From: a virus
Virus record (IMG/VR): IMGVR_UViG_3300018424_000307
Coordinates: 1-21,265 of that record
Length of the DNA: 21,265 nucleotides
Reading direction: 5' to 3' (one strand)
The position numbers were made by a program, and so were the translations under genes. Positions within the stretch are counted from its first letter, which is position 1, and each line of letters opens with the position of its first letter. Below, one piece after another: positions 1 to 21,265 of the stretch. A model generated the notes under the pieces. That model had not been told where the DNA came from, did not search any database, and worked only from the letters and a program-made list of their open reading frames with translations.

Positions 1-584
1 ATTTCTTGGCCAACGGTGCCGACTTGACCCGTGGCTTCTATTCCTGTAACGGTGACGTTTGTTTCTACCTCTACCGAAACAACGCCAACAAACACTTGCG
101 CTCTGCTTGGCGCTGTTATGGCTACGTTGGCATCGCCAATTATCGCCACAGATCCAACGGAAGTGGTGCCAGACAGCCCCGTTACGGGGACATTGGCATT
201 ACCAATAATTGAAACCGGGCCTATTTCCCCGGTGGCCGCAACCCCTGTAACAGATACGTTGGTTTCACCCGTTGCAGTTGCAGAACCTGCCGCTCCAGTA
301 GCCTCAACCCCTGTAACCGATACATTGGCTGCACCCGTTATGGTTACCGAATCTACCGCCCCAGTGGCCTCAACCCCTGTAACCGATACATTGCCCGTTC
401 CCGTTGCGGTTACAGAACCTACCGCTCCAGTGGCCTCAACCCCTGTAACCGATACAAAAGAATCCGACGCTATGGTTACAGAACCAACGGCTCCGGTAGC
501 GGCAACCCCGGTTACTACAACCGGTTCTATTCCAGCTTGGCTGGAAAACGCTACTTCGGCAAAACTGGCGGCGGAAAAAGCCAT
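1..584 (-). CDS. 22-residue-repeat virion protein, C-terminus beyond left edge
   Basis: An open frame starts at ATG 584-582 and runs off the window without a stop, giving 194 visible codons. The start has an AGAGGA Shine-Dalgarno 8 nt upstream and lies just after the stop of the preceding gene. The N-terminus reads MAFSAASFAEVAFSSQ. From about residue 25 the protein is a series of 22-residue units of the form VTGVxATGxxGSVTxxGxxNVS; four or five are near-identical and later ones diverge. The DNA repeats at exactly 66 nt (at about 235, 301, 367, 433 and 499). Val/Thr/Gly alternation suggests repeated beta-strands, as in phage fibre or spike proteins. Such repeats are familiar in marine phage structural proteins, but I cannot name a family. 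A role on the virion surface is inferred from the neighbouring fibre-like genes. The length is unknown because the end lies outside. Confidence 0.85.
   Translation of the reverse strand, partial: MAFSAASFAEVAFSSQAGIEPVVVTGVAATGAVGSVTIASDSFVSVTGVEATGAVGSVTATGTGNVSVTGVEATGAVDSVTITGAANVSVTGVEATGAAGSATATGETNVSVTGVAATGEIGPVSIIGNANVPVTGLSGTTSVGSVAIIGDANVAITAPSRAQVFVGVVSVEVETNVTVTGIEATGQVGTVGQE
235..515 (-). repeat. 66-nt in-frame tandem repeat
   Basis: The phrase GCCTCAACCCCTGTAACC, or a close variant, recurs at 235, 301, 367, 433 and 499, exactly 66 nt apart. It encodes the 22-residue units of the left-edge protein on the minus strand. More diverged copies continue toward position 1, with at least one 3-nt length change. 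Because the unit is a multiple of three, copy number can change without breaking the frame. Confidence 0.85.
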
Positions 585-5550: not shown

Positions 5551-6660
5551 TTAGCGGCCCCTTTTAACTGCGCCATAACCGCGCTTGGCCGCGCCACAGC
5601 CCACAGCACCACCGCTACGCATTTTCTTAACAGGACCCCCGCGCATTTTCTTAACAGGACCCCCGCGCATTTTCTTAACAGGACCGCCACGCGCTTTTTT
5701 GATTGGGCGGCTGGGAAGCAGATTTCCTTCCTCATCTCGCCCAACTGCTGTGTATTTGCTTTTGCTTGCTGGGTTAGTCGGGCGGACAGAACTCGTTTGT
5801 TTAGTTGACGTACTAGACGAGGTTTTTCTGCTGGTTCCGCTAGAAGGCAATCTTTTTGTTTTTTCCTGCTTAGTAACCGAGCCGCCACGAGCTTTTTTCT
5901 GCGGCGGATAAATTTCCTCTATTGTTACGGTGCCCCCGGGGAACATTTGGCCAAAAACTGTTGGATCAACACTTTTTAGTTTCGTCGCCAACTCGCTTTG
6001 GCTTTTTGAGCCCGCAATTTTCTGCGGTTTATACTTTCCTGTTCCCGTTTTCTTGGACTTCGCTGCGCTGTAATCTTCGCCAATTTGCTGTAAATCGCGA
6101 CGATTAAGGCCATGCTCGCGTTTCATAAGATCAAAGTTGACTGAGGCGGGTCCACCCTTTGCTTTTTTGACAGGTTTTTTTCTACGTGGTTTCGTTACCG
6201 CGCCGCCGCGAGCTTTACCCTCTGGTTCTGGTTCTGGCCCCATGGGGTAAATCTTCTCCATCGGCACCTTGCCCTTTACCCCCATTGCTGACGCAATTTG
6301 GTCATAAAGCTGTTGACTAATGCGCGGGCCTACCTCCGTCGATCCTTTCTCATATTCTCGATTTTTGCCAAGCGTATCCATTGCTGTTGTCAAATTTGCA
6401 AATTGAGAATGGTTTAACAGGGAGTCATCAAGCGCTGTTTGAGTAATATAAGGACTAAGGCGATTCCCCATTTCTGATCCAATCATGGGCCCACCCTTTC
6501 CTTTTTTGACAGGTTTTTTCTTCACAGCACCACCGCTACGCATTCTGGGCGGTTTTGCTTTTGCTTTAGGGGGCGCTTTAACTCCACGTTTTTCGGGAAA
6601 TCGTTTTGGCTTTGGAGTTATTCTCTTTTTTGGCCCTACTTTAGGTTTGATGCCCGGCAT
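5551..6660 (-). CDS. Lys/Arg-rich modular repeat protein with RGGxV motifs (369 aa)
   Basis: A very basic protein. Globular-looking blocks (about residues 56-145 and 172-252) alternate with Lys/Arg linkers containing [RK]GG[APS]V. The first two blocks end alike, EKIYPM...KARGGAVTK and EEIYPPQKKARGGSVTK, suggesting internal duplication. Residues 307-319 read GRDEEGNLLPSRP, a phrase repeated in the 517-aa protein near the right edge. The C-terminus has three near-perfect 8-residue repeats (KKMRGGPV) and ends GCGAAKRGYGAVKRGR. No enzyme motif is visible. It sits just upstream of the neck genes. Nucleic acid binding or being a DNA-associated or ejected virion protein is possible from the charge, but unproven. 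Its start overlaps the preceding gene by 20 nt. Confidence 0.75.
   Translation of the reverse strand: MPGIKPKVGPKKRITPKPKRFPEKRGVKAPPKAKAKPPRMRSGGAVKKKPVKKGKGGPMIGSEMGNRLSPYITQTALDDSLLNHSQFANLTTAMDTLGKNREYEKGSTEVGPRISQQLYDQIASAMGVKGKVPMEKIYPMGPEPEPEGKARGGAVTKPRRKKPVKKAKGGPASVNFDLMKREHGLNRRDLQQIGEDYSAAKSKKTGTGKYKPQKIAGSKSQSELATKLKSVDPTVFGQMFPGGTVTIEEIYPPQKKARGGSVTKQEKTKRLPSSGTSRKTSSSTSTKQTSSVRPTNPASKSKYTAVGRDEEGNLLPSRPIKKARGGPVKKMRGGPVKKMRGGPVKKMRSGGAVGCGAAKRGYGAVKRGR
5618..5689 (-). repeat. Three 24-nt tandem repeats encoding KKMRGGPV
   Basis: Units at 5618-5641, 5642-5665 and 5666-5689; the first two are identical and the third differs at two positions near its end. They lie in the C-terminal part of the 369-aa protein and preserve the frame. 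Near identity at DNA level points to recent duplication or active copy-number change. Confidence 0.9.
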
Positions 6661-11935: not shown

Positions 11936-12826
11936 TTACTCCTTAACGTATTTCGCGTATTCTTCAAGCGGCACTCCCAACTTTTTAGCAATTGCTACTT
12001 GGGTCGGGGAGAGTTTGACCCTTTTTCCGTTGCGCCCAGACACACTGCTAGAACGTGAAACTCCAGCCACATTCTGAGCGGGTCTGCGGCTGGCTGACGA
12101 ATTGGCTCCAAACTTATGCGGGAATTCCCGCCTAATTCTAGAATCAAGCTCATTATAGTAGTCATTTGATTGGGGATCAAATCCTTCATCTTCAATGAGT
12201 TTCTTATGGATGCCAAATGCGGCAAATGTCATCGCTTCGTCTTGCCCAAACCACGAGTTCTTTTCGGCCCATTTTTCCGCTTTTGCGTCGGGGCGTTGAG
12301 ACTGTTGAGAATGTTGCTGGGCCGATTGTTGCGCCTGCATTTGCCGGTAATATTCTTGCTCTTCAGCATATCTTTGGGCTTGCCTTTGCGCTTGCGAATA
12401 GTTGTTGCCTGCTATTGCTAACTGACTAAGTTCTTTTTGCGCTTGCAATTGTGCATCAGCATCCCCTAATTCTACGGCTCGCTTGAGGTTGGCTTCAGCT
12501 TGTCGTTGTTGCAAAGACAACCGGTTGCCGTATTCCGACATATACCCGTGATCAAGGTTTTGCATACGCTGTCGAATTTGATTCGACTCCTGCTGAACGT
12601 TTTGCGCATACCTAATCGCTTCTTCGCGTTGACGCTCGGCGTCCCGCATTTTCTTGGTCAAACGATTGATTCGTTTTTGTACGGATTCGCTGTAATTTTC
12701 AAGCTCGTCCTGTTGTGGCTCTTGATTGGCAACTTCGTCCGTGTCCGCCGTTTCGACTTCTACTTCAGTTTCTACCGCATCACCTACTTCTAACTCATAT
12801 TGAGCTTCTTCCGCAGCACTACTCAT
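11936..12826 (-). CDS. Scaffolding-like coiled-coil protein (296 aa)
   Basis: Order: an acidic N-terminus (about 1-45), a long Q/R/E-rich coiled coil (about 50-190, with QKRINRLTKKMRDAERQREE), a conserved block WAEKNSWFGQDEAMTFAAFG and YYNELDSRIRREFPHKF, and a basic C-terminus with SPTQVAIAKKLGVPLEEYAK. The acidic-coiled-basic architecture and gene position (just before decoration and capsid genes) fit a capsid scaffolding protein that is lost during maturation. The C-terminal helix-turn-helix-like end is characteristic of phage scaffold proteins, which use it to bind capsid. GGAGG lies 7 nt before ATG 12826. No protease domain is visible. Confidence 0.75.
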   Translation of the reverse strand: MSSAAEEAQYELEVGDAVETEVEVETADTDEVANQEPQQDELENYSESVQKRINRLTKKMRDAERQREEAIRYAQNVQQESNQIRQRMQNLDHGYMSEYGNRLSLQQRQAEANLKRAVELGDADAQLQAQKELSQLAIAGNNYSQAQRQAQRYAEEQEYYRQMQAQQSAQQHSQQSQRPDAKAEKWAEKNSWFGQDEAMTFAAFGIHKKLIEDEGFDPQSNDYYNELDSRIRREFPHKFGANSSASRRPAQNVAGVSRSSSVSGRNGKRVKLSPTQVAIAKKLGVPLEEYAKYVKE

Positions 12827-12838
12827 GCTGATTCCTCC

Positions 12839-13285
12839 TTACAGGCTAAGAATGTCTTCTGGATCTTCGATTACAGCCAAAATCTCATCATCGTTGATAA
12901 TGCGGCATTCGCCACCTTCAATACGAAAACGAGATCCGGCATATCGCGCAAAAACTACCCATTGTTTTTCTTCACACCAAGGCCCGTCAGGGAACTTGTC
13001 CGTGTCTTTGTAACAAAGTGGCCCTTGCTTCACCACATACCCAACCACCGTTTGGATTTGAGTGTCGTCAAGAACTTTGTTTGGAATGTAGATACCACCT
13101 TCGGTGGTTTCTTTACCGCGATAAGGAAGGATAAGCATTCTCCAGCCGGTGGGCTGAGGCATACGATCTAAAAGGCTTTTGTCCATCGCGTCGGGATCAA
13201 GTACCTTTTGTTTTGGTGCGGTGTACAAGGATTTGACGCCTTCTTTGGCAGCATCAAGATCCAATGCTTCTGCAACATCAGTCAT
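12839..13285 (-). CDS. GroES-like co-chaperonin (148 aa)
   Basis: The start ATG 13285 has AGGAG 7 nt upstream and overlaps the preceding gene's end (8 nt). A longer frame to 13306 extends back into that gene and was rejected. Residues 1-45 are an extension. From 46 on the chain follows the GroES fold: MPQPTGWRMLILPYRG, a mobile loop KETTEGGIYIPNKVLDD (about 59-74), VVGYVVKQGP, then an insertion with CYKDTDKFPDGPWCEEKQ, and a C-terminal FRIEGGECRIINDDEILAVI. GroES partners host GroEL; phage versions (such as T4 gp31) help fold the major capsid protein. Two cysteines in the insertion could form a disulfide. The N-terminal extension is unusual for GroES. Confidence 0.9.
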   Translation of the reverse strand: MTDVAEALDLDAAKEGVKSLYTAPKQKVLDPDAMDKSLLDRMPQPTGWRMLILPYRGKETTEGGIYIPNKVLDDTQIQTVVGYVVKQGPLCYKDTDKFPDGPWCEEKQWVVFARYAGSRFRIEGGECRIINDDEILAVIEDPEDILSL

Positions 13286-13475
13286 TAAATTGCTCCTGTT
13301 GTTCAAGCAGGCCCGAGAGTTCCTGTGAAATGTAATTCAGAGCAGACAATTCCCCCATGAGGTTTTGGTACTGCTCCATGGATTTAACATGATTGTTTTC
13401 CAACAATTCTAAAATGTGCGTTTTGCGGTCTTTAACCGCTCGTTGGATAAACTGAGCTAACTGTATAAAGTCCAC
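13278..13475 (-). CDS. Small coiled-coil phage protein (65 aa)
   Basis: A short amphipathic, nearly all-helical protein (MDFIQLAQFIQRAVKDRKTH, then MGELSALNYISQELSGLLEQ). The start is GTG at 13475 with GGAG 5 nt upstream; a nearby ATG at 13477 is out of frame. A similar protein beside GroES or scaffold genes is familiar in marine phages, without known role. It is the first gene after the 13485-13525 hairpin and overlaps the GroES-like gene by 8 nt, so it may start a transcription or processing unit. Confidence 0.7.
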   Translation of the reverse strand: MDFIQLAQFIQRAVKDRKTHILELLENNHVKSMEQYQNLMGELSALNYISQELSGLLEQQEQFND

Positions 13476-13879: not shown

Positions 13880-14073
13880 TTTTCGCTCTTGCTTACAAAA
13901 AGTCCAAACGATCCGGTAAGCGCTCCCGTCATTACAGAAACTAAGGCTGCTTGTTCTGGGCTAGGATCCGGCAGTGTCATAAACCACTCTACAACCCGGT
14001 AAGTCATAAAAGTCATTGCTAAAATTAAAATTCTAGGAGCAAGACGCCAATCATCTAATTGGGCGGGAGTCAT
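13876..14073 (-). CDS. Two-TM holin-like protein (65 aa)
   Basis: Two hydrophobic stretches: about residues 12-32 (LAPRILILAMTFMTYRVVEW) and 41-61 (QAALVSVMTGALTGSFGLFV), with a short PDPSPE turn and a charged C-terminus (SKSEK). This is a class II-type small holin architecture. The pattern (MTPAQLD.WR..PR ... EQAALVSV.TGA) is one I recall as a common phage holin-like membrane protein. Its position between the 3TM holin and the endolysin, with ATGA overlaps on both sides, supports a lysis role, either as pore former or antiholin. Confidence 0.8.
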   Translation of the reverse strand: MTPAQLDDWRLAPRILILAMTFMTYRVVEWFMTLPDPSPEQAALVSVMTGALTGSFGLFVSKSEK

Positions 14074-14471
14074 TTTTCGCGTGAAACGCCTTTAGTTTTT
14101 TCAAAAGTACGCAAACCGCCAAGGCCCAACATACCCAATAAAACCGTTAGCAAGCTTTCCATTTCAAATGTAGGAAGTTCAGGGGTGCTTGCACCAGACA
14201 ATGCCAAGCCAAAAACGACAAGAGGCTGGCCAACAAAGTGCCAAGCCAAAGCAATGCCGCAAGTCCACCCAACAAATGGCCGCCAACCTGCGACAAAAAG
14301 CGACTTATGCGCCGCTTCTGCTCGGTTAACTTCAAGTTGGCCCTTTGCCAATTCTTGAGCATGGCGCTCGGACATTGTAGCAATTTCATGGGCCAGCCTC
14401 GCTCGTTCGTCTGCATCTGGAATAAACTTGTCCAGCAATCCTGTTACGGGGCCAATTAAGGCGTCAAGCAT
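14070..14471 (-). CDS. 3TM holin family protein (133 aa)
   Basis: A helical N-terminal domain (about 1-56, with RLAHEIATMSERHAQELAKG) leads into the membrane part that begins with AGWRPFVGWTCGIALAWHFV (about 61-80), then QPLVVFGLAL (82-91) and a last segment LLTVLLGMLGLGGLRTFEK (107-125). The AGWRPF.GW motif and the LLG.LGLGGLRTFEK end are the signature of the 3TM phage holin family (Holin_3TMs). It would insert in the inner membrane and time lysis. It is followed by the second holin-like gene and the peptidase. Confidence 0.9.
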   Translation of the reverse strand: MLDALIGPVTGLLDKFIPDADERARLAHEIATMSERHAQELAKGQLEVNRAEAAHKSLFVAGWRPFVGWTCGIALAWHFVGQPLVVFGLALSGASTPELPTFEMESLLTVLLGMLGLGGLRTFEKTKGVSREK

Positions 14472-15781
14472 TAGAACATTCCGCCCCCGCCACCGCCACC
14501 GCCTTGCGACGGTGGTGGCGGTGTTGGTTGAGAAGCAGGCATTTGCGCTTGATACTCATTTGTGGTCGAGCCCTGTCCGGGGCCTTGATATGAGGTTGCG
14601 TTCGGATCTCCAAAATATCCGGGTGTCTGCTGAGTAACAGGGTTTGATACCGCCGTCTGCTGGAAACCACCGCCCGTTCCAAAGCTAGATGTCATGTTGT
14701 TGATTCTAGGACCAAAACCACCGCCGAAAGGACCAAAGCCGCCGCCACCGAAACCACCGCCGTAAGGATTAGGTCTGCCGAAACCACCGCCGTAAGGACC
14801 AAAGCCGCCACCGCCGTAAGGGTTAGGTCTGCCGAAGCCGCCGCCGTAAGGGCCGAAGCCGCCACCGCCGTAAGGATTAGGTCTGCCGAAGCCGCCACCG
14901 CCGAAACCACCGCCGAAACCACCGCCAAAAGAAGGGCGCATGTAGGGATTTAAAAGGCTAGCTATACCGCCACCAAAACCCATAAAAGGCTGTGGCCCCC
15001 TTTGCGGCAGGTAGGGCAGTGAGAAATCAAGCCGTGGCCCCAAGTTATACCCCGAGTTATACCCCGAGTTTTGCGGAGGGTTAAATATCTCTGTAACTGC
15101 GCCCAAGGGTGGCCGTCCCGTAGAGCCCATTGGGTCCCCCCCTCCCGGAATCTCAACGCCATTCGGAAGTGGCGTGTGACCTCCCGTTAAATCTGGGCCC
15201 GGAGTTATGCTGCCTACTTCTCCGCTAGGAATGCCTGTCATAGGGCCCAAGCCCGGAGGCAAAGGCATTGGTTGTCCTATGCCTCCTGTTCCCGGCGGAA
15301 CGTTAGGGGGTCTAGGCATTGGTTGTCCTATTAGATTTGGATCTGGTCCTATTAGATTTGGATCTGGATTGCTCATTTCCGGCGGCACATATATGCCGGG
15401 GTCGCCTTGTTCAAAAGGACCCCCCGTTCCAACCGTGGCTGTAATCGGAGGCAGTGCTGGTTGATTTTTATTAAGCTCAAGAAAGCCTTCCCCGCCCGGG
15501 GGACTTGCGTTGCCTAAGCCCGGAGGAGGAGGAGGGGGAGGATTAAATACCTCTGCATTTATCGGGCCTATGGGCCGTGGGCCCGGTGTTACTGGACCTA
15601 CGGGCCGTGGAAGAGGCCTTACTGAATTAAAAAACCCTGTATCATCAGGAATAAGACTTCTAAGATCCGTCCGTATAGGACGATTTCTGGGACCTGCGGG
15701 CCGTGGAGTAGGTCTAACAAACGGGTCGGATGATGCCGTCGCTTGAGGAGAGCTAATAGATCCTCTTTGATAAATAGCCAT
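14471..15781 (-). CDS. Pro/Gly-rich repeat protein (436 aa)
   Basis: Mostly low complexity. Residues 1-280 are Pro-rich with scattered PRPxGP and FNPPP phrases. Residues 280-360 are a Gly-rich block with 18-residue units RPNPYGGGGFGPYGGGFG. The end is PPPPSQGGGGGGGGMF. A short NPYMRPSF and a GGGIASLLNPYM segment break the run. No domain is recognised and no catalytic residue visible. Such a composition is expected to be disordered. It lies between the 66-aa basic protein and the 3TM holin, ending TAATG on the holin start. The role is unknown; a virion-associated or ejected protein, or an assembly factor, are possibilities. Confidence 0.7.
   Translation of the reverse strand: MAIYQRGSISSPQATASSDPFVRPTPRPAGPRNRPIRTDLRSLIPDDTGFFNSVRPLPRPVGPVTPGPRPIGPINAEVFNPPPPPPPGLGNASPPGGEGFLELNKNQPALPPITATVGTGGPFEQGDPGIYVPPEMSNPDPNLIGPDPNLIGQPMPRPPNVPPGTGGIGQPMPLPPGLGPMTGIPSGEVGSITPGPDLTGGHTPLPNGVEIPGGGDPMGSTGRPPLGAVTEIFNPPQNSGYNSGYNLGPRLDFSLPYLPQRGPQPFMGFGGGIASLLNPYMRPSFGGGFGGGFGGGGFGRPNPYGGGGFGPYGGGFGRPNPYGGGGFGPYGGGFGRPNPYGGGFGGGGFGPFGGGFGPRINNMTSSFGTGGGFQQTAVSNPVTQQTPGYFGDPNATSYQGPGQGSTTNEYQAQMPASQPTPPPPSQGGGGGGGGMF
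14707..14935 (-). repeat. 54-nt Gly-rich tandem repeats
   Basis: The phrase GG(A/G)TTAGGTCTGCC recurs at 14766, 14820 and 14874 (54 nt apart), framed by partial copies on each side. The units encode RPNPYGGGGFGPYGGGFG with mostly synonymous third-base changes. The near-identity with a multiple-of-three period suggests duplication and possible copy-number variation. Confidence 0.85.
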
Positions 15782-15792
15782 TTTTTATTCCC

Positions 15793-15993
15793 CTAGCAAC
15801 TCGTGAACCGTGAACCGCGGAGCGCGGCACCCATGCCTTTTTTCTTGCCCGTGGTAACTTTACCCATGGCCGTGTTAGGCGTTTTTTCTGCCTTGGCAGA
15901 GGCGTAGGGGATAGACCCCTGACCTTTAATTTCTGCCTTGTTTACAGGCTTTGGTGCGCTTGCTGCCGGAGCGCCATTAACTTTAACTTTCAT
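15793..15993 (-). CDS. Small basic protein ending AALRGSRFTSC (66 aa)
   Basis: An Ala/Lys/Gly/Pro-rich short protein: a Pro-Lys linker (SAPKPVNKAEIKGQGSIPYA) and a C-terminal KKKGMGAALRGSRFTSC. Such short basic tails ending in a GAALRG.RF pattern recur in marine phage structural regions next to portal genes. ATG 15993 follows the portal stop by one base, with AGGAA upstream. The single C-terminal Cys is notable. It probably accompanies portal or DNA packaging; the role is not known. Confidence 0.7.
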   Translation of the reverse strand: MKVKVNGAPAASAPKPVNKAEIKGQGSIPYASAKAEKTPNTAMGKVTTGKKKGMGAALRGSRFTSC

Positions 15994-15994
15994 A

Positions 15995-18448
15995 TCATTG
16001 ATTCCTGTCGAATCGCTGTTTCATTAATTCACGCTCCATCGCGGCATCAATTCTTGCCTGCGTCTGGCGCTCCTGACTAGCCAACCTTTGCTGGAACTCC
16101 GTAGCCTTGTTCTGCATACGCTGTTGATCAAGCTGCAATTCGGCTTGATCCATCTGGAACTCCTGTTGCTGGGCCTGCTGGTCCATTTGAAGCTCTTGTT
16201 GCTTCAATTGTATCAAAGGATCGGGTCCCTGTTGACCCTCTCCATTTATCTGCGCGGACAATTGCTTAAGCTGCTGGAACTCTTGCGCGTTAAGTTGCGC
16301 CGTCATTGCCTCCAACTCAAGCTCTAAGTCTGGCGTTAAGGGCTGTCCGCCGGTCTGCTGAATTAACTGCGCGGTAGCCATTTCTTGAGACTTTAACTTT
16401 ACATGCTCAAGTATATGTTTTTGCAAGGAAATTCCTGCTTGCGGTATGCCTTGAAGCATGGGCGACGAGCCAAATACCATGTGCGCCATAATGTGCGCAT
16501 CATGATCTTGACCCTCAAACGCTTTCAGTTGAACCATGTCAATCGCGTCAATGTTCTCCTGCGCAGGATCTTTCGGTATAGGATCATCCGAAGACGGCGC
16601 AATCAAAATCTTGTCAATGTCGTTGACTCCGAGCGCCTCATACATGCGGCGATAGGCTTCATGCAGGTCATGCATCTGCGGTGCCTGCATTGCCATTTCA
16701 AGTTGAGACTGTGCCAATGCAATGCGCTGTGCCTGAGAGAATGTGTTGGGGTTTGAAACAGGTACTACATCTACCCTGTCGTCAAAGTCCTGACGCATGA
16801 TGGCACGATCACCACCCGCTACCGCGTAAGGATACTCTTGCGGCAAATACTCCGACATGACGCGAGCAAGCAGCTTAAACTCCTGCTTCATGCCATAGTG
16901 CAGGCGCTTATGCACAGCACTCATGACCCGCGAACCTTGCTCCAACAACGCCACCGTGGTGCCTACTGCCGCCTGCTGGTTACCGTCGCCCACCTTCATA
17001 TCAGTGATCGTGGCAAACCGTTGGCCCGCATCTACTACAAAACCAAGCAATTGCATCAAAGTGCCGTCAGGCCCTTTGAAAGGCAACGGCATTAGAGAGT
17101 CGCGGATCGCGCCTCCCGGAGCATCGACATCACGGAATTCACCGGGCTGTAAGGGCTCCTCATCATCCCGTACCCGTAATCCCCGAGCCTTGAAGCCAGC
17201 AGGAAGATTAGAAAGAGTACCAGCATCAATAAGCTGGCGAAGAGCCGCCGTGGCCGTTCTGGACAGGCCGCCAATGGTATGGATAAGACCGAGACCATAG
17301 AATCCGAATCCCGGCAAAAATTTGTAATGAACGAAGTATTGAATTTTTTGTTTTTTGTCATCTTCTTCGCGGTAATTACGTCGGATAGAAAGGATTTGTC
17401 CAGTGTCCTCACTAATCGTAACCACATAAGGTATTTTAATGCCTGTTGGTTCACCATCTTCCCCTAATTCTTCAAACCCGGGCAGATCCAAGTTTACGTG
17501 GCACTCCAGCAACGTGCAGTCGTAATCCAAGTTTGAAGGCTCTATGCCCCCAAGCTTGTTCATTTCATCACGCACTTCGTCATCAGAGCCCTGCGTAGGA
17601 TGCACCGGAATATCGCTGTAAAAACCCATGATCTGCCGCTTTCGCAAATCATTCATGGACATCTTGACTACTTGAGTAATGTTTTCGCAAGAATCAAGGT
17701 CTGTTGCGCCATACGGCACAACAATGTCTTGAGCAGGCACAAACTTACTAACGGCGCGGTCTATGGCCTCGTCGTAATAAACTTTCTTAAAGGTAGAGCC
17801 TGCCAAAGGCAGATAGAACAGCATTTGATCAAATTCAGGAGTGTATTCCTCCATCACGTTTGTGATGTAGTAGTTCATAAACTCCTTTACACGGTACGCT
17901 TGCGCCTCATTTTCTTTTGTCTTTTCACCAACAACCGCCGTTCGGACCGGACCTGTTGGCGGCAAAAGCTCATTAAAGGCTTGCGCTTGGAATTGCGTTG
18001 CGGCCTCCGCAAGAAGCGGATGCGTTACGCCAGTTGCGCCCCGAAACGGCAGCGTTCTTTCTTCGTAGTTATAACCCAGAAGATCTAGGCCCTTAGAGTA
18101 AGCATCTTCCCACTCTGAACGGGAGGACTTATTAGCGTCAAAGTCGCTTAAAAGCTCAGAAGAAAGTTGACCAAGCTCTCTGTCGTCCAGTTCATCTGCC
18201 AAATTGCGATAAAAATCACCTTCATCCATGCCCATAAGGGCCATCGGATCAAAGTCAACGGTGACCCCACCGTCTTCCTCTTCTTCGATTTCTATGCCAT
18301 CTGGAAGCATTTCATTCATAGAACCGACAAAAGTGCCCGGAGCAGCAATCTCTATGTCTAGTTCCATTTCTTCTTCCGTAATCTCTGGTTGCATGGACGT
18401 ACCGTCCATCAAAGAAGAAAGAAGCGCTTTATCGTCGCCGTTAGCCAT
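15995..18448 (-). CDS. Portal protein, P22-like (817 aa)
   Basis: An acidic N-terminus (about 1-75, EMELDIEIAAPGTF and EIEEEEDGGV) is followed by the portal core, beginning near residue 125 with LLGYNYEERTLPFRGATGVT and TQFQAQAFNELLPPTGPVRT. The wing and stem region holds RRNYREEDDKKQKIQYFVHY, FLPGFGFYGLGLIHTIGGLS and RTATAALRQLIDAGTLSNLP, then GDGNQQAAVGTTVALLEQGS and HKRLHYGMKQEFKLLARVMS. The last ~130 residues are Q-rich helices (crown/barrel-like, as P22 portal's C-terminal barrel). P22 portal is about 725 aa; the extra length is at both ends. It forms the dodecameric vertex through which DNA is packaged. AGGAC lies upstream of ATG 18448. Confidence 0.9.
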   Translation of the reverse strand: MANGDDKALLSSLMDGTSMQPEITEEEMELDIEIAAPGTFVGSMNEMLPDGIEIEEEEDGGVTVDFDPMALMGMDEGDFYRNLADELDDRELGQLSSELLSDFDANKSSRSEWEDAYSKGLDLLGYNYEERTLPFRGATGVTHPLLAEAATQFQAQAFNELLPPTGPVRTAVVGEKTKENEAQAYRVKEFMNYYITNVMEEYTPEFDQMLFYLPLAGSTFKKVYYDEAIDRAVSKFVPAQDIVVPYGATDLDSCENITQVVKMSMNDLRKRQIMGFYSDIPVHPTQGSDDEVRDEMNKLGGIEPSNLDYDCTLLECHVNLDLPGFEELGEDGEPTGIKIPYVVTISEDTGQILSIRRNYREEDDKKQKIQYFVHYKFLPGFGFYGLGLIHTIGGLSRTATAALRQLIDAGTLSNLPAGFKARGLRVRDDEEPLQPGEFRDVDAPGGAIRDSLMPLPFKGPDGTLMQLLGFVVDAGQRFATITDMKVGDGNQQAAVGTTVALLEQGSRVMSAVHKRLHYGMKQEFKLLARVMSEYLPQEYPYAVAGGDRAIMRQDFDDRVDVVPVSNPNTFSQAQRIALAQSQLEMAMQAPQMHDLHEAYRRMYEALGVNDIDKILIAPSSDDPIPKDPAQENIDAIDMVQLKAFEGQDHDAHIMAHMVFGSSPMLQGIPQAGISLQKHILEHVKLKSQEMATAQLIQQTGGQPLTPDLELELEAMTAQLNAQEFQQLKQLSAQINGEGQQGPDPLIQLKQQELQMDQQAQQQEFQMDQAELQLDQQRMQNKATEFQQRLASQERQTQARIDAAMERELMKQRFDRNQ

Positions 18449-18485
18449 GTGATTTGTCCTGTGCTTTATGCAATTCTATCACGCC

Positions 18486-19214
18486 TTAGTTGCCGCAAGT
18501 TATTGATGTTGCGCCTGTGGCAGGGTCCGCGGTGGCAGAACATATAACAGGATCGGGTATCTCTAAAAGAATGTTTTCTAGGCCAGAGGTGTACGTTGAC
18601 CAAACATCGCTGTACAGCGCATTGTTTCCTGCATCCAACGTGATTAACCCCTGTATCGCATTGGTTCCCAGAGTTGTAACTCCGCTAATGCCCGCAGTGC
18701 CGAGCGTAACGTTGGAGTCAATGCCTGCGATGCCCAGTGTCACCATGCCGTCAACAAACGGTGTGTAATCAATGTTCCCAATTACATCGCCCGTTATCTG
18801 ATGAGCATCCACAAACGAGCCATACAAAGCCTGATTGTCTGCAGACTCCGCAGAAATACGAGCCAAATCAACTTGGCTGTTGTACCGCGCCATGGTCTTA
18901 GCCGAATCTGCTTGCATCCACATCATGCCCAAACTGGTCACAGGAGTAGCCAAAACAGACGCCCACTGAAGCGCCTCTGACTGTTGTGGAATCGGCTGGA
19001 TAGATTGCGTGTTAGTCAAAGCAAGCGCCATGACTGCGGCACTTGCCGCTTGACCATCTCCAGACGCGGCAATCTTGGACAAAGCATCAAACTTAGCTTG
19101 ATGCGCCAAAGCATTTGCCTCTGCCGTCTTCTGCACCGCCTCATAATATTGTGAGCTAGAACTAGCGCACCCCGTTATAAAAACCGCTAAAACCATTATC
19201 GCTAATGCTTTCAC
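18486..19214 (-). CDS. Phage-encoded lipoprotein (242 aa)
   Basis: It begins MKALAIMVLAVFITGCASSS: a positively charged start, hydrophobic core and lipobox ITGC (C16). After Cys comes a Ser cluster and an amphipathic Ala-rich helical domain (YYEAVQKTAEANALAHQAKF, then AASAAVMALALTNTQS). The C-terminal part has several nearly parallel segments (VTLGIAGIDSNVTLGTAGIS and GVTTLGTNAIQGLITLDAG), suggesting repeated beta strands. The protein is predicted to be exported and anchored to a membrane, with no Cys apart from the lipobox and two at the C-terminus. It could be a spanin-like, superinfection-exclusion or virion-membrane protein. It starts at GTG coupled to the previous gene through GTGA. Confidence 0.75.
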   Translation of the reverse strand: MKALAIMVLAVFITGCASSSSQYYEAVQKTAEANALAHQAKFDALSKIAASGDGQAASAAVMALALTNTQSIQPIPQQSEALQWASVLATPVTSLGMMWMQADSAKTMARYNSQVDLARISAESADNQALYGSFVDAHQITGDVIGNIDYTPFVDGMVTLGIAGIDSNVTLGTAGISGVTTLGTNAIQGLITLDAGNNALYSDVWSTYTSGLENILLEIPDPVICSATADPATGATSITCGN

Positions 19215-19336
19215 TTCTTTTTCCCCTTCTTAGCTAAATATGCCTTGTACGCCCGCTCGGCGGAGGCGCGGCTGGTATACATCGCCTTACCCTTACCAAT
19301 GCGGTATTTTCCATTTGAAGCTTTAGTTACTGGCAA
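19211..19336 (-). CDS. Small basic protein with TTG start (41 aa)
   Basis: The frame ends in TGA at 19213-19211, overlapping the lipoprotein's GTG start (GTGA). Read upstream, it gives VTKASNGKYRIGKGKAMYTS and RASAERAYKAYLAKKGKKK. An in-frame TAG stands three codons upstream of TTG 19336, so only TTG (with AGG 5 nt upstream) or the internal ATG at codon 19 can start it. The pattern KYRIGKGKAMYTS.ASAERAY.AYLAKK looks like a conserved short phage protein. It is helical and Lys-rich. The function is unknown; the location before a lipoprotein gene and after a disordered protein gives no further clue. Confidence 0.65.
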   Translation of the reverse strand: MPVTKASNGKYRIGKGKAMYTSRASAERAYKAYLAKKGKKK

Positions 19337-19349
19337 AACTACCTATCCC

Positions 19350-19367
19350 ACGCCGAATGTCCGGCGT
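19350..19367 (-). other. 6-bp hairpin in the gap before the 41-aa gene
   Basis: ACGCCG and CGGCGT (19350-19355 and 19362-19367) pair perfectly around a 6-nt loop. The hairpin sits between the stop of the 517-aa gene (19389) and the ribosome site of the TTG-started gene, without a T run, so termination is not indicated. It could affect access to that ribosome site. Confidence 0.5.
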
Positions 19368-19388
19368 CATAAACATATTCTTAGCTAC

Positions 19389-20942
19389 TTAACCCGCCAT
19401 GGGCATGATGCCCTGCTGCATCGTGGGCGGTGGTCCGGGGGCCGTGGGCGGTGGTCCGGGCGGCATCATACCTTGTGGGGGCATACCCCCCGGTGGCATA
19501 CCCGGTGGGCCCTGTGGAGGCATCATACCTTGCGGCGGGGCTCCGGGCGGACCTTGCGGCGGCATCTGTTGTTGCATCATCTGCTGTTGTTGCTGTTGCA
19601 TCTGCTGCTGTTGTTGCTGTTGTTGCTGTTGCGCAATTTTTTGCATCGTGCGCTTAAATGCCGCCATCTTTCGATCACGGTTCACGGCGTCGGCGTTTTG
19701 ATATTTCAACAGAAAAGACTCAATCCCTTCTCCGCTAGCAGGCGTTTCATCTTTAACCATTAAACTAGCAATACCTTCGCCAACTTCGCCGCCATCTTTC
19801 ATGCCGGGAGGGGGTTCTTCCGTGGCCGGGGGTTCTTCCGTGGCCGGGGATTCTTCCGTAGCCGGTGGTTCTTCCGTGGCCGACTCTACGCCAGCATCGG
19901 GAGAAGACATTCCCAAATCAACTTCGCGTTCTTGCGAGGCTAAATAATCGTCTATGGCTTTTTGAATGGCTGATGCATCAATGCCCATAAAACCCGTGTC
20001 AAAAAAATCTGGCAACGTGTCGATGCCGGAAGGCGTGTATGAGTCTTCAGCAGCTTTTGTCGCGGCCCGCCGTTCGATTTCTTTTTCCATTGCGTCTTCA
20101 TCAAAAAAATCAGGAGTGCGGCGGCTACGGGCTTTGCCCATAAACGCAGAAAAATCTCCAAAATCAGGGAGCATATCGCCCGAAAACCCTAAGCTAGGCG
20201 CGGTGTCTGGCCCTTCAAAAACAGGGGGCGGGGCAGGTGGCGGTGAAGTCGGCTCTTTTGGCGGTGGAGGCGGAGGCGGCGGGGGTTCTTCTACATATGT
20301 TTTTTCGTCGCCTTCGTACAAGGGCAGCGAATTTGTGTCTACAAAAACGTCTCTTTTAAAAGCTTCACTGGGAGCAACAAAAACATCTTGTAATGCGTTT
20401 GCGCGAGCCGCATCTGAAGGGCGACTTGGCAATAAATTGCCTTCTGCATCACGGCCAATTCGCACCTGCTCGGGCATTACTGACTCATAGCCGTAAGTTT
20501 CTGTGAAACTAGAATTGGGCCGGAAACTGCCGGTCTCAGCGTACTGATCGTTCAAGAAGTTTGTCAAAATATTGACTCGCCTCATGCTATCAGAGTTAAA
20601 ATCTGAGCCGCTAAAATCTAGCTCTCCCGCTCGGTTTAGGAACGACGAAGAGTTAGACAGCTCAGTGCCCTGCTCCGCAGACTCTGAAAACCACTTTAAA
20701 AACCAGTTGTAGTCTTTTTCGTTAAGAAGGCCCAAATCCCGCATCGTATCTACAACTTGACGATTGGTAGCGCCCTCTTTGAAGCTCATTGTGCCGTCAG
20801 CGTTTTTGATCAAATAGTCCGGTAAAGCGGGAGGCTTGTACGGAGTAGTAAAGGGATTACCCCCACCGCCAAAAGGGTTGTCGAGATAGTTCCTTAAGTT
20901 ATTTCGCAAATATTCATTTAGATATCTATTTGGTACAGGCAT
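19389..20942 (-). CDS. Large Pro/Gln-rich disordered protein with GRDxEGNLLPSRP motif (517 aa)
   Basis: Residues 1-215 are the only compact part (YLNEYLRNNLRNYLDNPFGG, then VVDTMRDLGLLNEKDYNWFL and MRRVNILTNFLNDQYAETGS), with GRDAEGNLLPSRP at 163-175, a phrase also present in the 369-aa protein. A Pro run (219-228) opens a disordered part. Three similar phrases, LPDFGDFSAFMG, TPDFFDEDAMEK and LPDFFDTGFMG, look like linear interaction motifs. Four ATEEPP-type units are followed by MKDGGEVGEGIASLMV, a helical stretch, and a poly-Gln tract with a PPQG(P/M) tail. No enzyme motif is visible. The function is unknown; a virion assembly or ejected protein are possible. It overlaps the upstream gene by 1 nt (TAATG). 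Confidence 0.75.
   Translation of the reverse strand: MPVPNRYLNEYLRNNLRNYLDNPFGGGGNPFTTPYKPPALPDYLIKNADGTMSFKEGATNRQVVDTMRDLGLLNEKDYNWFLKWFSESAEQGTELSNSSSFLNRAGELDFSGSDFNSDSMRRVNILTNFLNDQYAETGSFRPNSSFTETYGYESVMPEQVRIGRDAEGNLLPSRPSDAARANALQDVFVAPSEAFKRDVFVDTNSLPLYEGDEKTYVEEPPPPPPPPPKEPTSPPPAPPPVFEGPDTAPSLGFSGDMLPDFGDFSAFMGKARSRRTPDFFDEDAMEKEIERRAATKAAEDSYTPSGIDTLPDFFDTGFMGIDASAIQKAIDDYLASQEREVDLGMSSPDAGVESATEEPPATEESPATEEPPATEEPPPGMKDGGEVGEGIASLMVKDETPASGEGIESFLLKYQNADAVNRDRKMAAFKRTMQKIAQQQQQQQQQQMQQQQQQMMQQQMPPQGPPGAPPQGMMPPQGPPGMPPGGMPPQGMMPPGPPPTAPGPPPTMQQGIMPMAG
19813..19884 (-). repeat. Four 18-nt tandem repeats encoding ATEEPP-type units
   Basis: Units at 19813-19830, 19831-19848, 19849-19866 and 19867-19884, each a copy of GGTTCTTCCGTGGCCGGG with few changes. 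They encode the EEPPAT series of the 517-aa protein. The multiple-of-three period keeps the frame. Confidence 0.85.
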
Positions 20943-21265
20943 TACCGCATTACCTCACGACGAAACAGACTGCCTACCCCAGACTGCACGGGGCCGCCTT
21001 GGTTAAAATTAATTGACATTCCTTGCATTTGCGCCAAAGCCTGTTCAATCGCCGCCAATTGTTCTGGAGAAAGGTCGGGCATACCCGGAGGGGCGGTAGG
21101 CGCAGGGGGCGGTGGTGCCGTCGGTTTTGGCGGCTCCACGGGAGTGGGAGGAGGAGGAGCCATCGGCTCTAAACCCATGTCTGGAATCGGGGAAGGTCCA
21201 CCCGGCATCGGAGGGGTGCCCGGCATCGGAGGGGTGCCCGGCATCGGAGGGGTGCCCGGCATCGG
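20942..21265 (-). CDS. Proline-rich protein, N-terminus beyond right edge (107 aa visible)
   Basis: The frame is open to the right edge (the codon above 21262 is CCG), so the ATG at 21262 is probably an internal Met of a repeat and not the true start. Visible repeats MPGTPP are followed by a Pro-rich linker and then a short helical segment MPDLSPEQLAAIEQALAQMQ, ending GMSINFNQGGPVQSGVGSLF with RREVMR at the C-terminus. The terminal GGPV and GVGSLF resemble motifs in the 517-aa and 369-aa proteins. Upstream genes, possibly the terminase, are outside the window. The function is unknown. Confidence 0.75.
   Translation of the reverse strand, partial: PMPGTPPMPGTPPMPGTPPMPGGPSPIPDMGLEPMAPPPPTPVEPPKPTAPPPPAPTAPPGMPDLSPEQLAAIEQALAQMQGMSINFNQGGPVQSGVGSLFRREVMR
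21209..21262 (-). repeat. 18-nt tandem repeat encoding MPGTPP at right edge
   Basis: Three identical units of CGGAGGGGTGCCCGGCAT at 21209-21226, 21227-21244 and 21245-21262; the next unit begins at the edge, so the array may continue. Perfect identity suggests recent expansion, or an assembly ending in a repeat. Confidence 0.9.

Follow-up and report, generated by a model that had tools for sequence, protein, structure and literature searches.

A variable portal-adjacent cassette in a podovirus-like lineage, with exchangeable proteins that share a candidate C-terminal loading tag

The window, by which we mean the whole stretch of DNA analyzed here, is a virus record from IMG/VR of 21,265 bases. 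On its minus strand, the gene order is a gene open at its 5' end at the right edge, followed by those coding for a 517-aa protein, a lipoprotein-like protein, the portal protein, a 66-aa protein, a 436-aa protein, a GTA-type holin, an M15 peptidase, GroES, and the head proteins. Related loci are referred to below by L numbers. The features of the region are as follows.

20942-21265, minus strand: C-terminal 107 aa of the 5'-open right-edge protein, a Pro-rich linker coded by 18-nt repeats and then the conserved end FNQGGPVQSGVGSLFRREVMR (ORF list, alignment)
21201-21265, minus strand: 18-nt tandem array coding for PGTPPM units, 3.6 copies, 100% matches (TRF, Markov control)
19389-20942, minus strand: 517-aa protein with an ordered N-terminal region, Pro/Glu-rich linkers, a helix at residues 418-458, a Gln/Pro/Met linker, and the end MQQGIMPMAG (ORF list, alignment, structure model)
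19810-19882, minus strand: 18-nt tandem array within the 517-aa gene, coding for EEPPAT units, 4.1 copies, 90% matches (TRF)
19570-19628, minus strand: poly-Gln tract of mixed CAA and CAG codons in the 517-aa gene (TRF)
19323-19388, minus strand: fossil of the C-terminal tail of a cargo gene (see below), reading VAKNMFMTPDIRRGIGSFASN and then a stop, in frame directly after the stop of the 517-aa gene
18486-19214, minus strand: lipoprotein-like protein of 242 aa with a GTG start and a Cys after ITG (lipobox recognized by eye)
15995-18448, minus strand: portal protein, 817 aa (phrog_1216, E = 2.5e-60)
15793-15993, minus strand: conserved small protein, 66 aa, between the portal gene and a second variable slot (ORF list)
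14471-15781, minus strand: 436-aa Pro/Gly-rich protein in this second slot (between portal and holin), with GGGFG units and the end GGGGMF
14754-14900, minus strand: 54-nt tandem array coding for FGRPNPYGGGGFGPYGGG units, 2.7 copies, 92% matches (TRF)
14070-14471, minus strand: holin of the GTA_holin_3TM type, which bounds the second slot on the right (Pfam PF11351, E = 3.6e-23; phrog_3427, E = 8.5e-35)
11936-12826: candidate scaffold gene matching phrog_28737, whose function is unknown in PHROGs

The assignment of the last of these as a scaffold gene is suggested by its position ahead of the genes for the head proteins; the phage co-chaperonin GroES is coded at 12839-13306 (Cpn10, E = 1.7e-8). 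The start of the 517-aa gene overlaps the upstream stop by 1 nt (TAATG), as does the start of the holin gene with the stop of the 436-aa gene, and these overlaps would be of the kind found in translationally coupled operons. The lipoprotein-like gene is swapped for one coding for an unrelated 148-aa protein in eight relatives (L018, L026, L036, L038, L039, L041, L042, and L043). In the relative L162, the portal has a match to Pfam SU10_portal (E = 1.8e-13); L162 and another portal relative, L163, come from metagenome bins named Rhodobacteraceae and Maricaulis sp., a weak hint from two bins, with contamination possible, at alphaproteobacterial hosts for the lineage. Elsewhere in the window, a 369-aa Lys-rich protein (5551-6660) has KKMRGGPV repeats coded by a 24-nt tandem array (3.3 copies, 5618-5699) and has the pattern GRDxEGNLLPSRP in common with the 517-aa protein; in the ORFs of the window and of L002 to L081, matches to this pattern are limited to these two proteins, the copy of the 517-aa protein in L002, and a 517-type protein in L021. 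At the left edge, a 194-aa frame (3-584, minus strand) is cut by the window end and contains 66-nt repeats (227-509) coding for VTGVEATGAVGSVT-like units; the opposite strand is also open here.

An earlier note on this DNA had drawn attention to three long proteins rich in Pro, Gly, and Gln around one portal gene, with in-frame repeats of 18, 18, and 54 nt and a poly-Gln tract. ORFs, TRF, and composition confirm this. TRF reports 10 rows with a best score of 252 for positions 14471-21265 and none in 50 first-order Markov simulations of the same region. Pro makes up 30.8% of the right-edge protein, 13.5% of the 517-aa protein, and 19.5% of the 436-aa protein, of which a further 23.6% is Gly; in the remaining 25 listed window proteins, Pro ranges from 1.3 to 12.9%, a maximum that the 517-aa protein barely exceeds. 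All three are thus Pro-rich, but the one at the right edge is not seen as a long protein in the window, being a 107-aa fragment cut by the window end. Its complete gene is found in L002 (1518-3206), where it starts 6 nt after the stop of the large terminase gene (TerL) and codes for 562 aa, with an Asp9-Asn38 tract specified by GAC repeats and then AAC/AAT.

L002 overlaps the window over 10,525 nt with 2 mismatches, and L003 does so over 4,578 nt with 1 mismatch. A third contig, L167, has 1 mismatch over the first 3,816 nt from the start of the 517-aa gene, 15 more within the last ~90 nt, and 7 substitutions without a change in length in the 323 nt containing the right-edge array. L002, L003, and L167 are metagenome contigs of the short-read type and not long reads. 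The end of L003 falls inside the 54-nt array, as might be expected if the arrays were assembly artefacts or noncoding repeats, but array lengths are equal in the window, L002, and L003 wherever they are covered. Furthermore, dN/dS within the 517-aa, 562-aa, and 436-slot families is 0.12 to 0.43 in 12 of 13 pairs, the 13th having saturated dS, so that every pair with usable dS lies below 0.45; for the portal, the values are 0.05 to 0.09 (three pairs). An artefactual or noncoding origin is hence largely refuted and retains a negligible probability; as judged from these ratios, all three protein families are under purifying selection and are coding genes. The presence of several low-complexity proteins around one portal gene is accordingly correct as first described.

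In the 562-aa family, eight aligned proteins display a conserved middle domain and a conserved GG[PA]V..G[IV]GxLF end, with a Pro-rich linker between them in some members; in five of the eight, the linker is absent and the middle domain runs straight into the end. The 517-aa family conserves the N-terminal region, a GG-containing segment with GxGIESFL, the helix, and the final MQQGIMP. Between the helix and this end lies the Gln/Pro/Met linker, which ranges from 7 to 79 residues across 21 proteins. The earlier suggestion that the copy number of the repeats may evolve fast is partly borne out: linker length varies across this family, and the arrays covered in L002, L003, and L167 are unchanged in length. 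The AlphaFold model of the 517-aa protein (mean pLDDT, 58.3) has 229 of 517 residues below 50 and confident stretches at about 33-154 and in the helix at 418-458, and that of the 562-aa protein (mean, 50.7) has 327 of 562 residues below 50. The description of these proteins as intrinsically disordered thus holds for many residues and fails for the confident parts of the 517-aa model. Confidence is low in the linkers of the 517-aa protein, which agrees with the alignments in indicating that the repeats are length-variable linkers between conserved blocks.

These low-confidence models retrieved nothing at E ≤ 0.001 in fold searches against PDB and BFVD (517-aa protein) and PDB (562-aa protein), and a renewed search for relatives of the 517-aa protein recovered two near-identical contigs and nothing else. 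Matches of the 517-aa protein to Pfam P22_portal (E = 0.36) and TFIIA (E = 0.00074, below the cut-off) lie in the Gln-rich stretch and were attributed to its composition. The 517-type protein of L037 (1497-3605) has a weak match to DUF4214 (E = 0.0021, below the cut-off). The earlier note had also raised roles as condensate formers or assembly scaffolds, in which case the proteins could form condensates or a scaffold-like matrix through their FG, Gly, Pro, and Gln repeats. The GGGFG-rich 436-aa protein with its relatives in the same slot and the Gln/Pro tracts would suit such a role, but the repeats are short or absent in orthologs that keep the ends, as in the linkerless 562-type proteins and in 517-type linkers of as few as 7 to 8 residues, and we regard it as very improbable.

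Comparison with the best 80 of 404 relatives found by a portal search revealed that the gene content of the TerL-portal interval varies from phage to phage around the order TerL, 562-aa gene, 517-aa gene, (cargo gene), lipoprotein gene, portal gene. The third gene of this cassette, which is absent from the window, codes for what we term the cargo protein, with an exchangeable body and a conserved C-terminal tail, typically of 33 aa, with the pattern GGGVxSLAPVARNMF...RGVGAY. Of the 21 loci that extend from TerL to the portal gene, 19 have a cargo protein with the tail; the two that lack it are L002, the twin of the window, and L078. Tagged proteins with a visible start measure 165 to 1190 aa, except for a possibly broken 152-aa frame in L070. 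A profile of the tail recovers every full-tail cargo protein with iE of 1.1e-19 or better and, outside the slot, only six small proteins of 68 to 97 aa at iE < 1 (0.007 to 0.027). Such small proteins (L031, L040, L045, and others) contain KMA[KT]GGMV[KR]GYSPIA, which resembles the start of the tail. An independent scan in which the tail was the sole query added 72 loci, many of them on contigs already in the locus set, and 69 of these have the tail at the strict cut-off. It is in frame at the C terminus in all 69 and within 2 residues of it in 66; a portal gene lies downstream in 68, and the remaining contig, L143, ends in the lipoprotein gene.

A composite GG...G[IV]G pattern, composed only after the sequences had been inspected, occurs among the C-terminal 70 residues in 45 of the 107 slot proteins (36 from the cargo family, 7 562-type, and 2 unassigned; lipoprotein-family proteins and identical ends not counted), against an average of 0.04 after shuffling and none of 490 other ORFs from those loci. 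The ends of the 562-aa family were tried as instances of the cargo tail and rejected: their profile scores of -0.9 to 3.4 are matched by 9 to 106 of 300 shuffles and by 11 to 102 of 437 other C termini, so that the two resemble each other weakly and have no significant likeness. The SGIGAYAP part of the tail is resembled by the N termini of four 517-type proteins (L012, L022, L033, and L037), with profile scores of 4.0 to 7.8, which at most 2 of 300 shuffles reach; the best of 437 other N termini scores 3.1. The genomes of these four proteins have no 562-type gene after TerL.

The 436-aa protein does not carry the cargo tag. The gap between the portal and holin genes is either ~200 to 220 nt long, with the small gene alone, or longer, with a low-complexity protein, and 18 of the 23 complete proteins of at least 200 aa from this slot have Phe as their last residue (counting both the window and its twin). 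The 436-aa protein is a low-complexity protein analogous to the cassette companions and located in a second variable slot. The portal-holin-slot proteins of L033 (12647-13519), L035, and L051 look similar by eye, and together with the weak DUF4214 match in the 517-type protein of L037 this may reflect a domain that moves between slots.

Most of the bodies of 44 cargo proteins, many of them 5'-truncated at contig ends, have no enzyme domain recognized by Pfam. At E ≤ 0.01, the matches are to DUF6973 (10 proteins), the putative metallopeptidase DUF6782 (9), DUF6884 (5), LPD23 (4), and ART-PolyVal (1), several of them under the curated cut-off; those above it are ART-PolyVal and DUF6884 in L081, DUF6884 in L072, and DUF6782 in L009 and L021. 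In L081, the ART-PolyVal (ADP-ribosyltransferase) domain occupies residues 849-1039, just ahead of the tail at 1053-1069; the core of the tail is repeated internally at 496-514 and, by eye, also at the N terminus. A weak match to phrog_4529, "minor head protein and DNA pilot," occurs in 3 of the 44 (best E, 0.00089). By domain content, single cargo relatives, such as L081 with ART-PolyVal and DUF6884, would be of the polyvalent type, and the proteins of the window itself would not.

In the pairs examined, the boundary between body and tail is sharp. L014, L015, and L018 have portal DNAs that are 99.6 to 99.8% identical and a 102-nt tail that is identical save for one base of the stop codon, and immediately upstream of the tail start GGCGGCGGC (GGC GGC GGC) their DNAs are unrelated; the bodies are thus exchanged at the first codon of the tail. 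In L018, the gene downstream of the tail differs too, leaving the tail as an island of identity relative to L014 with unrelated DNA on both sides. L009 and L052 (portal, 99.3%) keep the tail with unrelated adjacent bodies and have a domain further upstream in common. When whole bodies were clustered by single linkage, domains in common drew most cargo proteins together (52 in one cluster), and we therefore relied on mutually dissimilar bodies and on the 200 aa adjacent to the tail. In a set of 51 bodies, 9 were found to be mutually dissimilar, including the 562-aa protein, and 413 of 1,275 pairs are similar at E ≤ 0.01. After the removal of five near-duplicate loci (from 55 to 50), 42 of 1,225 pairs combine tails that are at least 90% identical with no detectable homology in the adjacent 200 aa; the converse holds for 6 pairs. 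Across the 50 loci, tail identity tracks portal identity, compared over the first 700 aa (Spearman 0.65; none of 999 Mantel permutations as high), and its correlation with body identity is 0.13.

The correlation with the portal can be explained by linkage of neighboring genes in one genome. The tail peptide appears to matter beyond what linkage alone gives, because its dN/dS-like ratio is 0.11 over codons 1 to 14 and 0.32 over those that follow (125 pairs), i.e., it evolves under purifying selection. The same values bear on the alternative that what preserves the tail DNA is mainly its use as a short arm of homology in recombination, with the peptide having no targeting role. Swap boundaries exactly at the tail in the examined pairs and the island of identity between L014 and L018 are what this explanation would predict; the strong amino acid constraint and the in-frame C-terminal position of the tail in every strict match argue against it and make it improbable.

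The window preserves a trace of this history. The frame after the stop of the 517-aa gene corresponds to the final 21 codons of a cargo gene and matches intact tails at 61 of 66 nt in L004, 61 of 66 in L159, and 57 of 66 in L073; its junction is identical in L002, L165, and L003. This remnant indicates that an ancestor of the window phage had a cargo gene and lost its body. In principle, the remnant could still be expressed through a 17-codon ATG frame or by read-through of the stop. The fossil illustrates that a phage can lose the payload and still retain the other parts of the cassette.

The nearest cultured or complete relatives are the HTVC023P-type pelagiphages and DSL-LC04, with portals 53 to 59% identical. 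Their TerL-portal interval holds one or two hypothetical proteins, with a "PcfJ-like" annotation in DSL-LC04, and differs in that the tail was not found in them or elsewhere in the cultured-phage collection (tblastn, E up to 10). GB2A, Pag-Yong1, QDWS535, and CRP-901 have an empty slot, implying that it is dispensable in the wider group. No description of the tail was found in the portions of the open-license PMC literature consulted, and these genes are not mentioned in the sections of PMC9599517, PMC10149686, and PMC10386132 used here. For HTVC027P, late and early gene classes have been assigned in a transcriptome, according to the portion of PMC12753301 used.

Several known systems offer partial parallels. 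MuF proteins, such as SPP1 gp7, a capsid protein that binds the portal and whose gene is next to that of the portal, include polymorphic toxins in which, as in our system, a gene beside the portal gene joins one conserved part to exchangeable parts (PMC5576092, in the sections considered). However, the 562-aa, 517-aa, and cargo genes are found upstream of the portal gene rather than immediately downstream, where only the 66-aa and 436-aa genes are located, and the polarity is reversed, a variable N-terminal part being followed by a constant part in the form of a short tail. MuF toxins belong to temperate phages, whereas the phages studied here are not known to be temperate. Given this opposite polarity and the lack of a MuF domain in Pfam scans (E up to 0.01 to 1) of the window proteins, 10 cassette proteins, and the 44 cargo proteins, many of which are 5'-truncated, we do not file the system under MuF. 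Polyvalent proteins occur in phages and conjugative elements, and those of phages with portal-terminase packaging have been predicted to be packaged (PMC5512222, in part). Some cargo bodies resemble them in possessing ART-PolyVal, the putative metallopeptidase, or LPD23 (below the cut-off), as well as in occurring in portal-terminase phages; a constant tail with swapped bodies is not described for them in the parts of PMC5512222 considered, and the window lacks such a body, its low-complexity proteins matching no polyvalent domain in Pfam. By analogy, the system might work like MuF toxins or polyvalent proteins, with reversed polarity and no detected MuF domain.

The ejection proteins of T7-like and P22-like podoviruses, for which domain swapping has been described, are likewise mosaic, variable in length, and found in short-tailed phages (PMC8954989, in the sections used). 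The 562- and 517-type proteins scanned have no match to ejection-protein families at E up to 0.01, and no such family was retrieved when the 562-, 517-, and 436-aa proteins, with their relatives, were compared with PHROGs. The T7 and P22 ejection genes also differ in gene position from the arrangement here. Scaffolding proteins differ from the cassette genes in both position and variability, being coded by an essential and conserved head gene that adjoins the capsid gene.

Taken together, we favor the reading that the cassette, in this podovirus-like lineage, is a slot next to the portal gene for proteins that are internal to the virion and probably ejected, with the tail as a candidate loading tag; a probability of about 55% applies to the internal, ejected reading as a whole, and the tag is its bolder and less probable step. 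The TerL-portal interval is an exchangeable cassette, and its proteins probably travel inside the head and leave it with the DNA. The tail would serve as an address that directs the cargo to the procapsid interior, the simplest route being attachment to the portal or to an internal core, and the partly disordered 562- and 517-aa proteins may be internal partners of the cargo. Their disordered linkers could let ordered segments thread the narrow portal channel or could simply tolerate changes in length. More tentatively, we consider it possible that a tag of ~33 residues loads interchangeable payloads into the heads of marine podoviruses, with the low-complexity companions acting as a flexible apparatus for loading and threading. 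Of the roles proposed in the earlier note, that of ejected proteins fits best because the TerL-portal slot of relatives carries polyvalent-type proteins; their location in the virion is itself inferred.

A competing explanation, which we find unlikely though deserving of weight, is that the 562- and 517-aa proteins, and also the 436-aa protein, are assembly factors, such as chaperones of portal assembly or packaging accessories, whose site of action is the cell and which are not ejected. Their genes belong to the packaging module, two of them in the TerL-portal interval and one beyond the portal gene, the proteins combine ordered or helical parts with flexible linkers, and a slot that is variable or empty in wider relatives is compatible with accessory roles. 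Against this, the polyvalent-type enzymatic bodies in the slot of relatives have no obvious role in assembly, and the swapping of bodies ahead of a fixed tail suits cargo better.

Under the preferred reading of the slot as a site for loaded and ejected proteins, the low-complexity arrays are explained as linkers in a module under exchange rather than as its functional core. If the tail is indeed a packaging tag, the choice by podoviruses of the proteins loaded into the head would become testable with a short peptide, and abundant uncultured marine phages would hold a reservoir of injected, early-acting proteins that could be mined by the tail alone.
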